Origin: a sulfur-oxidizing endosymbiont of Gigantopelta aegis | GTDB lineage: Bacteria; Pseudomonadota; Gammaproteobacteria; GRL18 | Reading direction: 5' to 3' | Assembly (NCBI RefSeq): GCF_016097415.1 | Contig: NZ_JAEHGE010000001.1 | Span: 2,095,157-2,159,156, forward strand | Length of the DNA: 64,000 nt | Shown here: one piece after another, positions 13,268-19,403 of the stretch | Layout: each line of letters begins with the position of its first letter | Numbering within the stretch: the first letter of the stretch is position 1 | Program-made: the position numbers and the translations under genes | Notes under the pieces: model-generated | Database searches by the model: none | The model's input: the letters and a program-made list of their open reading frames with translations, nothing else | What the model was told of the DNA's origin: nothing

Positions 13268-13761
13268 ATGGCTATAAAACAATCTATCACAATTAATAAG
13301 GCAGTAACTTTATTGCCTATTCTGATCTTGATCGTGGTCAGTTTAGTGCAGGGTTATATTCGTTATTCTCATGATATTGAAACCGCCATAAACCATCGGG
13401 TTGAGTTGGCAAAAGTATCAGCTCAGCCTATTCTTAATTTAATGAATCGTTCTGTAGGTGGGGGCAATTATGCTAACCTTCAGGATGTGGAAGCTCTGAA
13501 TCTGTTTAAAGCTAATAAAGACATTGATTTTTTTTCTGTACAAGGAAAAACAGATGCTCAAGGTAAAGACTTTGCTGCCTTGTATGATGCTAAAAGTCAG
13601 ATTTTATATCGAACCATTTATTCTGACGATTATCTTTCCAGTCGTCAGAAAAAATTAGAAAAAATTGATGCGACCTTAAAGACGTTGCCTCAAGGACATG
13701 TCTCAGATCGAAATAGAATATTTTTGAATATTATCTTAACTGAGAGGGAGTTTGATCAACA
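13268..13761 (+). pseudogene. Methyl-accepting chemotaxis protein, 5' half
   Basis: After MAIKQSITINKAVTL a membrane helix (about residues 14-30) and a periplasmic sensor region (ETAINHRVELAKVSAQPILNL ... FFSVQGKTDAQGKDFAALYD) are present. The frame runs into an IS66-like insertion after LNIILTER. The continuation REVTEIMPMTL is found on the other side at 15465. Ligand unknown; it follows the haem protein by 14 bp. Confidence 0.75.
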
Positions 13762-15450
13762 CAGGGCAAACTAAAGAGCCTTAAAAAGCCATGATACAAT
13801 TGTTTTATTGAAAACAACCTGTATTGATTATAGTGAAAAATTACCTCCAATTCCAGAGATACCTGAAGAAGAAAAGACACCGGTAGTCCGATTACTCCTT
13901 GCTTTCATGGAGCAACAACAGGAAATCATTCAAAACCAACAGGTTGAAATCGATGCCCTTAAAACAGAAGTTGCTAAGCTTAAAAAGCTACCTCCAAAGC
14001 CTAAAATAAGAGCCAGTAAATTGCCAAAGGATGATGACAATGATAATCCGACAGGTCATTCAGGAAGCAAGAAAAACAACTCAGGAAATGGGACTAGTAA
14101 AAGTCGTAAACGAAAGAAGAAATTGGCTATTCATAAAACCACCGTTATCAAACCAGATAACCTGCCAGAACATTCACGTTTTTTAGGGTATCAGGATTAT
14201 TTTGTTCAGGAGCTGCTGATTAAGCCTTTCAATACTCGTTATCGATTGGCTCGCTATAAAACACCCGATGGTGATACCTGTATAGGAAAATTGAGCTTTG
14301 ATACACATATAGGACATTTTGGCCATACATTACAGAGTTATATCGTTTATCAATATTATCACCAGAGAGTGACTCAGCCATTGATAATACAACAATTAAC
14401 AGAATTAGGTTTTGATATTTCAACGGGTCAGATCAATGAGATTTTAATCCATGACAAAGACCATTTTCATACTGAAAAAAATACATTGCTAACTGCCGGT
14501 ATCAACAATAGTACTTATATCCATGTTGATGATACGGGTAGTCGTCATGATGGAAAGAATGGTTATTGTACTCACGTTGGCAATGAAACCTTTGCCTGGT
14601 TTTCAAGTACTCGATATAAGAGCCGGATTAATTTTCTACAATTGTTACGAGGTGCTGCTGTTGATTATACGCTCAACGATGCAGCACTTGATTATATGAG
14701 AGCAGAAAAATTACCTCACAAGCCATTGAGCGTTATTGAACAAAGTCATCAGACTTGCTTTGATAATGAAGAAGCCTGGAAATACTATCTGCAGAACAAT
14801 AGTATCATAACACAACGGCATGTTCGCATTGCCACAGAAGGCGCTTTACTGGGGGCATTAATTAACAGTGGCTTTCCAAGTGATTTGGTGATTGTGAGTG
14901 ATGATGCAGACAATTTGATATTTTGTTGCACGCATTATGTTGGATACATGCAGACAGAGTGAGTGTTTCAGCGGATACTACCACTCAATGAGCGACATGA
15001 TAAAGAACTGAACTGGGTACATACTCAGATTTGGGAACTATTTTATGATCTCAAACAATATAAACTTGAGCCAGATGATCCGTTGAAGTCAGCGATTGCT
15101 GAACATTTTGATGAATTGTGCCGGACTAAAACAAGCTTTGAAACGTTGAATCAGGCACTGAAACGATTGGCAAGAAATAAAACAGAATTACTGCTGGTAT
15201 TGGAACGGCCTGATATTCCTCTTCATAATAATTTGAGTGAAAATGATATTCGAGAATATGTTATTAAGCGTAAAATTAGTGGTAGTACACGCTCAAAGGA
15301 TGGGCAACTTTGCAGAGATACCTTTGTCAGTTTAAAGAAAACTTGTTTGAAACAAGGAATTTCATTCTGGGATTTTATTAATGACCGGATCAGCAAGAGA
15401 AATTTGATCCCATATCTGCCTGAGTTGCTGAAAGGTAAAGTTTGTGCTGT
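13762..15450 (+). mobile_element. IS66-family element (transposase-only type) within the chemoreceptor gene
   Basis: A single long transposase frame, without the small tnpA/tnpB genes of classic IS66, splits the chemoreceptor. CAGGGCAAACT near 13762 and AGTTTGTGCTG ending near 15449 are partly complementary and may be the termini. No clear 8-bp target duplication is seen, so the boundaries are approximate. Confidence 0.75.
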
Positions 15451-15454
15451 TTAA
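13808..15454 (+). pseudogene. IS66-family transposase (TnpC), internal stop
   Basis: The N-terminal part has a coiled coil and a Lys/Ser-rich linker, then the IS66 zinc-ribbon/HTH region and a DDE core with HVDDTGSRHDGKNGYCTH. The C-terminal part has ERPDIPLHNNLSENDIREYV. An in-frame TGA at 14960-14962 separates 384 and 163 residues. Near it, the expected LCWIHADR motif is readable only in a different frame (TTATGTTGGATACATGCAG). This implies two indels that together restore the frame but scramble the motif, leaving the enzyme dead. Confidence 0.8.
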
Positions 15455-16050
15455 ATGCACAGACGAGAAGTTACTGAAATAATGCCTATGACACTGATAT
15501 TATTAGTGATTGCAGTTGTTGCCGTCTTGTTTGTGGCAAGAAGTATTAATGTCCCCCTCAATACAATGATTAAGACCGTTCAGGACGTTGAAAATGAATC
15601 TGATCTGAGCAAGCGTGTAGGACTTTCTCATGTATTAGAGCTAAATCAATTAGCGAATGCTTTTAATAGTATGTTAATAAAATTTCAAAGTATTATTGCG
15701 GATGCCTCTCAGGTATCTGTGACGACAACGAATGCAGCAGAGAAAATGGTGGCCATTTCAGAACAAGGGAGTAGTCATTTACAAGAGCAGCAGGAGCAAG
15801 TTAGTTCGGTGAGTCGTTCAATGGATGAAATGACTGAGGCCGTTGGCCATGTGACAGAAACAATCACAGAGGCTGTAAATATTGCTGAGAGTGCACATCA
15901 GTCAGCAAAACAAGGTCATACAGTGGTGCAACAGTCCATTGAAAAAATTAATCAGGTGTCAGTTATGCTGAACAGGTGGCAGAATTAGGACAGTCTTTAG
16001 AGAGTTCTTCAGAAAGCCTTGAAGATATTGTAGGTCAATTTAAATTGTAA
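15451..16050 (+). pseudogene. Methyl-accepting chemotaxis protein, 3' part with internal deletion
   Basis: From REVTEIMPMTL a second membrane helix (ILLVIAVVAVLFVARSI) leads into a HAMP domain (INVPLNTMIKTVQDVENESDLSKRV) and the start of the signalling coiled coil. At about 15960 the frame breaks. The tail AEQVAELGQSLESSSESLEDIVGQFKL is in another frame and ends at 16050. The conserved hairpin tip (the E-rich CheA/CheW-binding region) is absent, so roughly 100 or more residues were deleted. Confidence 0.75.
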
Positions 16051-16928: not shown

Positions 16929-17130
16929 ATAGCTTATATAACTTATTGATAGTGATTATTCTACCTCAAGCCAACAAAGATGTCAGATAATACATTAATG
17001 ATAACTGAGTCACATTACTGCTTATTAATATAAATGGGATGTTATGAAATATATTTTTTTTAACTGGGTTTTGTTTTAAATATTTGATTTAAAAGGAATA
17101 ATATATTTTTTCTTGAGGTTCAATAATTTC

Positions 17131-17161
17131 TTGAGTGGTGAGCAGATACAAACCCTATAAT
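17131..17161 (+). promoter_or_regulatory. Predicted sigma70 promoter of the CsrB-like RNA
   Basis: TTGAGT (17131-17136) and a perfect TATAAT (17156-17161) are 19 bp apart, which is long but tolerated. The predicted start is about 17168. No open reading frame follows; the GGA-rich region and a terminator do. Confidence 0.5.
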
Positions 17162-17167
17162 ATAAAG

Positions 17168-17517
17168 GAGATCCCCGATTGCTGATAAAATTTACTCTGG
17201 TATCATATGCGCATGGATTAGGAAATCCAGCAAGGGAAGATGTAAGAAGGAACGATTAAGGATAGCAGGGTTGATGGATTGACCGCAGGCTGGATCAGCC
17301 TGGTAAGGAAGTAAGCATTGTTCTCGTTCGTGTCATTATGGATGAAGGTAGACATGAAATCGGATGGATTCGGAGTCATGTGACGAACAAACAATGTCTG
17401 ATCTCGTGCTTAGCATCTTTTTTAAAGTAGTCGCTTTTATGGCAATGGCTTTGAAAATGATGGCTAATTATTTGTAGATCGAAAAAGCGATAAGGCTTAG
17501 CCTTATCGCTTTTTTTT
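17168..17517 (+). ncRNA. Candidate CsrB/RsmZ-type small RNA (CsrA/RsmA-sequestering)
   Basis: About 350 nt without an ORF lie between a TATAAT box and a strong intrinsic terminator. From 17205 to 17375 there are 12 GGA trinucleotides, far more than the two or three expected by chance. Several sit in hairpin loops, the CsrA-binding configuration: TGGATT-AGGA-AATCCA at 17214, CAGGCT-GGATC-AGCCTG at 17286, and AATC-GGATG-GATT nested in ACATGA/TCATGT at 17352-17381. A longer stem pairs GCATTGTTCTCGTTCGTGTCA with TGACGAACAAACAATGTC. CsrB-family RNAs titrate CsrA and so control motility, biofilm and carbon storage. Length resembles E. coli CsrB. No sequence-level homology search was possible. Confidence 0.7.
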
Positions 17518-17518
17518 T
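17482..17518 (+). terminator. Strong Rho-independent terminator
   Basis: AAAAAGCGATAAGG pairs perfectly with CCTTATCGCTTTTT around the loop CTTAG, and a run of nine T follows. It ends the CsrB-like RNA. Its A-rich left flank means it may also serve the batD operon arriving from the other strand. Confidence 0.9.
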
Positions 17519-17546
17519 GCCTGCTGCTTTTTTAAATGCTATTTGT

Positions 17547-19403
17547 TCAAGGATTTAAATGAGCAAATGCCTGTGGCTTTTGCTTTTTTTCTTGATGGTT
17601 TCTTTTTTCTTGAGCAAGGTAGGATTCAAGTGCTGTTTTTAAGGCATTGCCATCCCAATTTTGTTTGTTCTTTGAGTATTGCACACTTTCAAGCTGATTG
17701 ATGGCATTGATGAAATGCTCATCATCGATGGTTTGAATGATATCGGATAGGCCAGCTAATGTTGTTTGTTTGAAGTGTAGCCGAGCCCATTGTATGAGAG
17801 CATGACTGGCTTGGCTCGCATTGTTCGCCTGACATGCCTGATAGATCGCTTGCAAATATTTACCCAGTGCTTTGTGAGCGACGTTTTGAGCTTGTGTGCG
17901 CTCTTGAGAATTTAGTTCAGCTTGTTTGTTTTTTGCCCGTGACGAAATGAGTATTATGAAGGTGATAAACCATAAAATAAGCAAGGCAAGACTAATCCAG
18001 AACCAGATGTTTTCCATTAGACTGAGGTCTTTATAGACTAATTTCTCAATGGTCTTAGTGGTTTCAGTTTGCTCAGGATTATGCGCTTCAGAGGTATTAT
18101 TGGCCTGGGTATTGACAGGCTCTTTTACTGGTGCTTTTGCATTAAGCTCTGGCGAGTCAGGATTTGCTTTGGCAATTAAGGTCTGTGGTGCTAAATAAGC
18201 AGTTTCTTGTTGATTGGTTTGTGTGTTCCACCAATCGACTTTAATCTCTGGCAGGGTAAATTCACCGGCTTTTAAAGGAATGATTGCCACGGTATCACGT
18301 CGCACACCCAGCACCTGACCATTGATTAATTGATTACTGAGTTTTTCTTTGTCAGGGTAAGTCTTAATGGTCTTATTTAAAGCCACACTGATAACCGGTA
18401 GTTGTGAGCCTAATAAGCCTTTGGCACGCACAACGATGTGTTGGGTGATGGCTTCACCAGCAGAGATGGTATTAATGGCCTCAACAATCTCAGACTCTAT
18501 TTCAAGGCTTTCTGCCGGTAGCCAGTTTTTGCCCGTGTAGTTGGCTGGAATGGGCAAAATATTTAAAGCAATAGGCTTTGTACGACTGACAATTTGTCGT
18601 CCGGGGCGAGAAAATAAAGAAAAATTCTGACTGATTTCGGCATTGCCGGTAAAGGTCATCGCAGGAATAATTAACTCACCGCTTTGTTGTGGGAATACGG
18701 CATAACGGCGTTCAATAATATTATAGCGATGATTAGCAATCACCTTGCTGTAATTTGCATCATTGCCCAGTTTTTCAACGACGGTATTGCTGAGTTCCAG
18801 ATCACTCAGACTGGCATTAGAAAAACGTATGCGATGAAATAATTTAACAGTGATAATAATTTGTTGTTGCACATAGTAGGATTTTTTTTCTGTGGTTTCA
18901 TCAATTTCATCCTTAGCAATTTGTATTTTAAGAAAGACTTCCTTGCCGTCAATGGCAGGTGTGGTGGATTCTTTTTCAATGACTAACTTAATTGGCTGAG
19001 TGCTTTCACTGCCTATCTTAATGGCAGGAATGGTCAGCTTGCCGGTTTTTTTGGGTAAGAGAGTAATATTCCAGCTATGGGTGCGTGATGCATGGCCGTT
19101 GATAAGGCTATAATTCTGACTTTGGCTCTTGCCCATGATTTGAAAATCATCTTCAAGCTCGGATAGATCAGGCTCACCGGAATTGTTTTCAGAAACAATT
19201 TCTAAGACCATGGTTTCATCAATGCTGAGGCTTGTTCTATTGGTTGTTGCATCAACCGATGCCCATAGGCTGGTGCTCTGAAGTAATGCAAAGAGGCAGA
19301 AAAAACTTATTATCAGTAGTTTGTGGCTGAGTTTAAGTTTAAGCTCAGTTATATTGATTGATTGCTCTGTTACGGGTGTCATTATTTGAATTGCTTTTTG
19401 CAT
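17547..19403 (-). CDS. batD: BatD-family protein
   Basis: BatD proteins are large, membrane-anchored periplasmic proteins of MoxR/Bat operons, linked to envelope stress or oxygen tolerance; the biochemical role is not established. The 618-residue product has an N-terminal hydrophobic export segment (about residues 28-48) and beta-sandwich repeats typical of the family (SLSIDETMVLEIV, LTIPAIKIGS, LIIPAMTFTGNA, FTLPEIKVDWW). A C-terminal membrane helix follows (about 468-490, WFWISLALLILWFITFIIL), with a cytoplasmic tail. It is the last gene of the operon, 45 bp after batB/C. A second ATG at 19382 is an alternative start. Confidence 0.88.
   Translation of the reverse strand: MQKAIQIMTPVTEQSINITELKLKLSHKLLIISFFCLFALLQSTSLWASVDATTNRTSLSIDETMVLEIVSENNSGEPDLSELEDDFQIMGKSQSQNYSLINGHASRTHSWNITLLPKKTGKLTIPAIKIGSESTQPIKLVIEKESTTPAIDGKEVFLKIQIAKDEIDETTEKKSYYVQQQIIITVKLFHRIRFSNASLSDLELSNTVVEKLGNDANYSKVIANHRYNIIERRYAVFPQQSGELIIPAMTFTGNAEISQNFSLFSRPGRQIVSRTKPIALNILPIPANYTGKNWLPAESLEIESEIVEAINTISAGEAITQHIVVRAKGLLGSQLPVISVALNKTIKTYPDKEKLSNQLINGQVLGVRRDTVAIIPLKAGEFTLPEIKVDWWNTQTNQQETAYLAPQTLIAKANPDSPELNAKAPVKEPVNTQANNTSEAHNPEQTETTKTIEKLVYKDLSLMENIWFWISLALLILWFITFIILISSRAKNKQAELNSQERTQAQNVAHKALGKYLQAIYQACQANNASQASHALIQWARLHFKQTTLAGLSDIIQTIDDEHFINAINQLESVQYSKNKQNWDGNALKTALESYLAQEKRNHQEKKQKPQAFAHLNP

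Follow-up and report, generated by a model that had tools for sequence, protein, structure and literature searches.

We sought to determine what occupies the gene-free stretch at 17131-17518 of the window (the whole 64,000-nt stretch of endosymbiont DNA that was analysed), which an earlier note, made from the letters alone, had taken for a Csr-type RNA, the main one or one of several in this organism. It lies between an MnmC2-like frame on the minus strand upstream and the convergent batD gene (17547-19403, minus strand; Pfam PF13584). The best reading, to which we assign a probability of roughly 0.86, is that 17213-17518 is an sRNA gene titrating CsrA, one of four siblings in the genome and an extended member of a lineage-specific, order-level family absent from Rfam; the idea of one among several Csr-type RNAs is supported by the four copies, by conserved GGA motifs, and by the presence of csrA and a GacA-type regulator. 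The MnmC2-like frame itself (P0001; 16111-16962, minus strand) has an NCBIfam NF033855 score of 216.4 bits (cut-off 136) and stops short of the MnmC FAD part. It is open to about 16962, yet contains no ATG, GTG or TTG before 16560, which points to a rare start codon or to decay.

With a cut-off of 40 codons, the strand of the predicted RNA carries no ORF between 17131 and 17518, as had been claimed, but the opposite strand does have one, a 58-codon frame with a TTG start at 17218-17394. The count of 12 GGA triplets in about 170 nt proved exact (n = 12 within 17213-17380), compared to a mean of 6.7 in dinucleotide shuffles of that segment, 12 being reached in a fraction of 0.003 (2000 shuffles); for the predicted RNA as a whole, the same 12 stand against a shuffle mean of 7.6, with a fraction of 0.0285 as high. 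When 168-nt stretches were sampled on both strands of the window in steps of 24 nt, 17213-17380 was the GGA-richest of 5,320, the next non-overlapping one containing 9 and the median being 1.

Folding of 17168-17517, as the earlier note had proposed, gave z = -3.35, with none of 100 shuffles equally stable. Both in the window copy and in its three siblings, several GGA motifs, many of them in hairpin loops, exceed chance expectation: in sampled folds of the window RNA 4.4 of the 12 lie in hairpin loops versus 0.88 +/- 0.74 in 40 shuffles, none of which is as high, while for the three siblings 1, 1 and 3 of 40 shuffles are as high. E. coli csrB, used as a positive control in the same test, yielded 10.3 GGAs in loops versus 2.35, again with 0 of 40 shuffles as high. 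The three perfect stems with GGA loops reported before are all exact in the sequence, namely hairpins 1 and 3 (Table 1) and AATC-GGATG-GATT at 17358-17370, enclosed by ACATGA (17352-17357) and TCATGT (17376-17381); hairpin 2 had been overlooked, and its loop reads ATGGAT if the G-U closing pair is counted. At two other loci (L089 and L090) the same hairpin 1 GGA is enclosed by a different stem, ATCG/CGAT. The extension specific to the window copy forms a long arm closed by GCATTGT (17315-17321) and ACAATGT (17391-17397), with GGAs at 17340, 17362, 17366 and 17372, and an arm like it was recognized by eye only in one copy (L004) of a relative, G004. In the sampled folds, the GGA at 17366 occupies a loop 97% of the time, and pairing predominates for those at 17215, 17340, 17362 and 17372. 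The 3′ region of the copy (17398-17481), in which a first T-run ends near 17423, is devoid of GGA and lacks a clear counterpart in most copies; a second weak model match at 17333-17517 (16.5 bits) possibly represents an internal duplication.

Table 1. Predicted features of the RNA locus and its upstream region (window coordinates)
Feature	Position	Strand	Description
Putative upstream activating site GATAACTGAGTCACAT	17000-17015	+	dyad-like, consensus about GTTAAC-N4-TCACA
Conserved element GGAGATCCCCGATTG	17167-17181	+	overlaps the -35; family form about GGNNANCCCTAATTG
Conserved promoter	17179-17206	+	-35 TTGCTG (17179-17184), 16-nt spacer, -10 TATCAT (17201-17206)
Predicted CsrA-titrating sRNA	17213-17518	+	about 306 nt, 12 GGA motifs
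Hairpin 1	17214-17229	+	TGGATT-AGGA-AATCCA, GGA in loop; common to other copies
Conserved core linker	17234-17271	+	three GGA motifs (17235, 17249, 17260)
Hairpin 2	17269-17284	+	GGTT-GATGGATT-GACC, GGA in loop
Hairpin 3	17286-17302	+	CAGGCT-GGATC-AGCCTG, GGA in loop
Extension specific to window copy	17303-17397	+	GGA at 17307 and long arm
Rho-independent terminator	17482-17518	+	A-run before the stem, T-run after it

A TATAAT box does exist where the earlier note had seen one (17156-17161), but it is not the promoter that the copies have in common. Since the conserved promoter sits further downstream (Table 1), the RNA probably extends from 17213 to 17518, with transcription expected to start near 17213. 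The same promoter layout was found by eye in other copies, including two of the three siblings in the genome; a generic promoter scan left it below threshold, and a generic scan did not detect the terminator either. A CCC-T-AT-type element ahead of a -10-like hexamer was counted by eye in 23 of the 32 copies, with a 16-nt spacer where this was read, while the other nine have no CCC element before a -10, two of them with less than 240 nt of upstream sequence; the copy at 88 kb in the window genome is without the CCC-T-AT element. The upstream dyad GTTAAC-N4-TCACA occurs at varying distance, about 27, 127 or 150-170 nt ahead of the CCCTAATTG element. It scores at least 14 of 15 in 12/32 copies, versus 0.78 in mononucleotide shuffles, and at least 13 of 15 in 22/32 copies, versus 6.8/32, its consensus having been drawn from the same sequences on which it was scored; the dyad of the window copy scores only 13, the level that shuffles reach in 6.8/32. 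It may be a CRP-like site (CRP consensus TGTGA-N6-TCACA). The Rho-independent terminator claimed earlier is indeed present. Because its stem is flanked by an A-run and a T-run and may serve batD too, ending that convergent gene as well, the terminator alone is no evidence for an sRNA; judged from its sequence, the locus as a whole is laid out like an independent intergenic gene that has a promoter and a terminator.

The Rfam 15 library, in which E. coli CsrB was detected at 380.4 bits as a positive control, yielded nothing at cut-off in the window. None of the models for CsrB, RsmY and PrrB/RsmZ, which the earlier note had suggested, or for CsrC reaches its gathering score, and the RNA is therefore not a strict member of any of these families. 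Catalogue models of Csr/Rsm RNAs come from enterics, vibrios and pseudomonads. The best score for CsrB (RF00018) in the whole window genome, 19.5 bits with a cut-off of 71, lies elsewhere (L044); CsrC (RF00084, cut-off 61) gave 12.0 bits in the window and 20.8 bits in L068 (E 0.034); RsmY (RF00195) and PrrB/RsmZ (RF00166) each reached cut-off in 0 of 6 genomes (the window genome and five others), in searches for which 14 control genomes yielded no positive control either. With relaxed settings, 14 weak matches appeared in the window, almost all of them in the 3′ region and terminator, and two, both below cut-off, in 20 member loci. The best sub-threshold match, to the ribosomal protein leader RF00558 (29.0 bits versus a cut-off of 58.7; E 0.0012 in the window search, 0.12 in the member-loci search), would, together with the same-strand gene behind the terminator of the 735-kb copy, be in line with a role in cis, as the leader or riboswitch of a gene nearby. 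We rejected this match, which is confined to the A+T-rich 3′ region of the window copy and its terminator (17419-17523); the genes that follow the RNA converge on it in the window as well as at the 88-kb and 4.12-Mb copies of the same genome, making a cis-acting role most improbable. Convergence is nevertheless not general, since the 735-kb copy precedes a same-strand gene.

In a BLASTN comparison of the stretch with 57 genomes, several members of the same genus and family proved to share a conserved core (window about 17235-17295), frequently in multiple copies, most of the weak rows being chance matches. A MAFFT alignment of 20 core copies (A1), from which the window copy and L004 were omitted because of their long inserts, provided covariance model R1, built without the window copy. 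R1 located 31 copies, each scoring 44 bits or more, in 16 of the order's 24 genomes, the next match being at 25.5 bits; 11 of these copies lie outside the 20 training sequences. Model R2, comprising 32 rows (30 of the 31 places, without G008:C168, plus HyVt-500 and G363), recovered the same 31 places from the same 24 genomes, the scores overall spanning 43-150 bits. Five of the model matches below 30 bits (L080, L081, L095, L096 and L097) were dismissed by eye as resembling terminators or stretches in or behind coding sequence. In addition to the window copy, the window genome contains three others, at G000:C1:87934-88111, 735150-735318 and 4121947-4122088. They score 121 to 145 bits with R1, compared to 73.1 bits for the window copy, which is the most diverged of the four and reaches 78 bits (17228-17323) with R2, the model that includes it.

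When 369 genomes of the class were searched, with stricter filters than those of the order, three order members and G363 (40.9 bits) alone stood out, all further matches scoring 28.0 bits or less. G363 belongs to another order than the window genome, and its single copy adjoins a thioredoxin-like gene, divergent, as in the window genome; the remaining four genomes of that order gave no copy with R2. Eight of the 24 order genomes have no copy above 25.5 bits with R1, four of them being 64-79% complete and the remaining ones (G002, G007, G016 and G018) 93-100% complete. A pattern scan of 84,980 species genomes returned 19 stretches, all from metagenome-assembled Gammaproteobacteria, of which one is labelled Aeromonadales and one comes from a symbiont of Bathyaustriella thionipta, whose symbionts were probed as Thiohalomonadales according to passages of PMC9938160; this places the order indirectly as Thiohalomonadales. 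Similarity searches matched 17% of the stretch to a single plasmid, from Borrelia (E 1e-3), and nothing in phage DNA. In Gammaproteobacteria, Csr/Rsm RNAs act as switches of global carbon and lifestyle control, and the family would be the RNA so far missing from a marine lineage that includes a gill symbiont of this vent clam; the covariance model can be used to annotate it there.

The earlier note had made its case depend on conservation of the GGA loops in relatives, and GGA positions are indeed kept, in relatives as well as in the three paralogues of the same genome, within a covarying structure. In A2, an alignment of 32 rows (31 distinct) fitted to the model, GGAs start at columns 8, 23, 36, 52, 70 and 201 in 32, 32, 31, 31, 23 and 32 of 32 copies, respectively, the first three columns being those of the core-linker GGAs. 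Out of 141 columns, 23 are fully invariant, and 13 of these belong to the 18 GGA columns (hypergeometric p about 8e-9, with the GGA columns chosen after seeing the data). Pairing is maintained in 97.3% of cells versus 89.6% in shuffles, and two-sided changes occur in 11 of 17 pairs, both measures being strongly lowered by sliding the partners; in four of five structure measures 0/500 shuffles reach the observed value, and in the fifth (further pair types) 31/500 do, although related sequences can beat such shuffles even without structure. RNAalifold, applied to the plain, unfitted MAFFT alignment A1, gave two hairpins and the terminator, the same helices as in A2. Hairpin 2 (helix 1) has two-sided changes in four of five pairs, with 92.9% of cells paired, and hairpin 3 (helix 2) in three of five, with 98.1% paired.

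Conservation is not confined to GGA triplets. The linker GTAAGANGGAACGA (A2 columns 15-30, window about 17241-17256) is conserved about as strongly as the GGA motifs, which is not required by CsrA titration alone. This linker and the GGAG near the terminator, both conserved beyond GGA triplets, would be accommodated by a structured sRNA family acting otherwise, through base-pairing with mRNAs or by offering GGAG/GGAGG Shine-Dalgarno-like motifs to ribosomes, as would GGA counts that in single cores exceed those of dinucleotide shuffles only mildly (3 of the 32 cores have p < 0.05). However, hairpins 1 and 2 retain GGA in the loop even where the stem has changed, and fixed loop GGAs, multiple copies and the company of csrA and gacA are features of CsrA sponges, as described in passages of PMC7652899, so that we regard another mode of action as quite unlikely. 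It is doubtful, though less so, that the RNA has a double function, acting as a CsrA sponge while GTAAGANGGAACGA does more: the linker would, for example, pair with a fixed RNA partner or form a tertiary structure by which CsrA loading is ordered, and an activator would read the dyad together with GGNNANCCCTAATTG, a site distinct from that of GacA/VarA, in which case the sponge could run without GacA.

The genomic surroundings of the copies bear on whether they are genes at all. An aspartate-aminotransferase-like or thioredoxin-TPR gene lies beside 14 of the 32 loci and a purH or phosphohexomutase-like gene beside another 10, while the remaining 8, the window copy included, are located elsewhere; two of the paralogues have neighbours that are unchanged across genera. 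Several copies per genome, in a genome that also carries IS66-family elements, might be expected of a dispersed repeat, a mobile element or its relics, but with 24/32 loci in two neighbourhoods kept across genera, and with compensatory changes in the helices, this explanation is hardly credible. Because siblings sit in two such neighbourhoods, the family provides a test case for the divergence of sponge copies.

The position of the window copy itself is not shared. The mnmC-batD interval of relatives, whose alignment had been suggested, offered no counterpart: 0 of 21 other batD-like loci have a copy beside batD, with the full 1,500 nt covered at 19 of them, 381 nt on that side at L138 and 215 nt at L139; L152 and L153 share no more than 35% identity with batD, and L154 and L155 were left out of the search. 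A window copy that is degenerate or silent, with the other three copies in the genome functional, would explain this private location as well as the low score with R1 and the 3′ part that lacks a counterpart in most copies. It is nonetheless unlikely, given that the copy has kept GGA at the core positions together with its promoter spacing and has gained extra GGAs, and that a relative possesses a long-armed copy (L004).

CsrA is encoded in the same genome as the RNA, where the search for a csrA gene, also proposed beforehand, gave three matches in frames of 69, 115 and 87 codons. Besides the main csrA there are two CsrA-like frames distinct from it, separated by about 4.4 kb (L034 and L035; G000:C1:1335436-1340089), whose C-terminal tails are nearly identical. 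Across the order, csrA was found in 22 of 24 genomes, among them the copy-less G007, G002 and G016, while G015 (81% complete) has a family copy and no csrA was found in it. G007, which is 100% complete and has csrA and no detectable family copy, may hold a diverged or different sponge. The GacA/UvrY response regulator of the window genome is 54% identical to E. coli UvrY and matches NCBIfam NF007018 at 303.1 bits (cut-off 280), and its gene is followed by uvrC and then by a CDP-alcohol phosphatidyltransferase gene (pgsA-like), which is the E. coli gene order. Directly adjoining the gacA frame at its 5′ end, before uvrC (L130:1675-4052, L129:802-1431, G000:C1), is an IS66-family element (PF03050) bordered by an exact 8-bp target duplication, GATAAAAG, and because of this element GacA may be lowered, abolished or poorly made in this assembly. 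Regarding control by GacA/UvrY, the genome encodes the homologue with IS66 at its 5′ end, and the upstream element resembles only half of a VarA site: TGTG opens both the VarA site (passages of PMC6262261) and the reverse complement of the dyad, but the right half and spacing differ.

Under the preferred reading, that of a CsrA-titrating sRNA, we infer that the RNA is transcribed, binds and titrates CsrA, and depends on an activating protein. Activation of its promoter would yield an RNA with exposed GGA motifs, some of them in linkers and several in the loops of hairpins 1 to 3 and of one hairpin in the 3′ arm. By binding these motifs, CsrA dimers would be drawn off mRNA leaders, and CsrA-repressed genes would be released. 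The four copies, having different upstream regions, could feed several signals into one CsrA pool.

This kind of RNA is well known; the family is new. RsmY and PrrB/RsmZ of Pseudomonas are short, multi-copy sRNAs with GGA hairpin loops, and their Rfam models span 121 and 133 positions, compared to about 183-187 nt for the siblings in the window genome, in which neither family reaches cut-off. CsrC has a terminator end resembling that of family member L068, but that match is confined to the 3′ end (model 202-244). E. coli CsrB is likewise intergenic, with many GGAs in hairpin loops and linkers and a terminator, coexists with CsrA and the UvrY homologue, and shows the same loop-exposure behaviour, but it has 22 GGAs (passages of PMC7652899) as opposed to 12 in the window RNA; with R2, E. 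coli csrB scores only 14 bits, yet is the sole match in the 11.5 kb searched. The same source gives an ANGGAN loop for high-affinity RsmE targets. According to passages of PMC6262261, csrB genes in Vibrio have separate upstream regions and occur in two to four copies per genome, usually two to three, with four in V. tasmaniensis, which is similar to the situation here. Overall, the features match the CsrA sponges described in passages of these two papers, and the sequence is that of a separate, unlisted family; no described Csr RNA of this lineage was found in open-licence PMC papers.

Within 13268-15988 the window also contains a second IS66-like transposase, lying in two frames, 13808-14962, which has no Pfam match, and 14963-15454, which matches PF03050. 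It is located between two pieces resembling one sensor or chemotaxis protein, the second of which has a HAMP domain.
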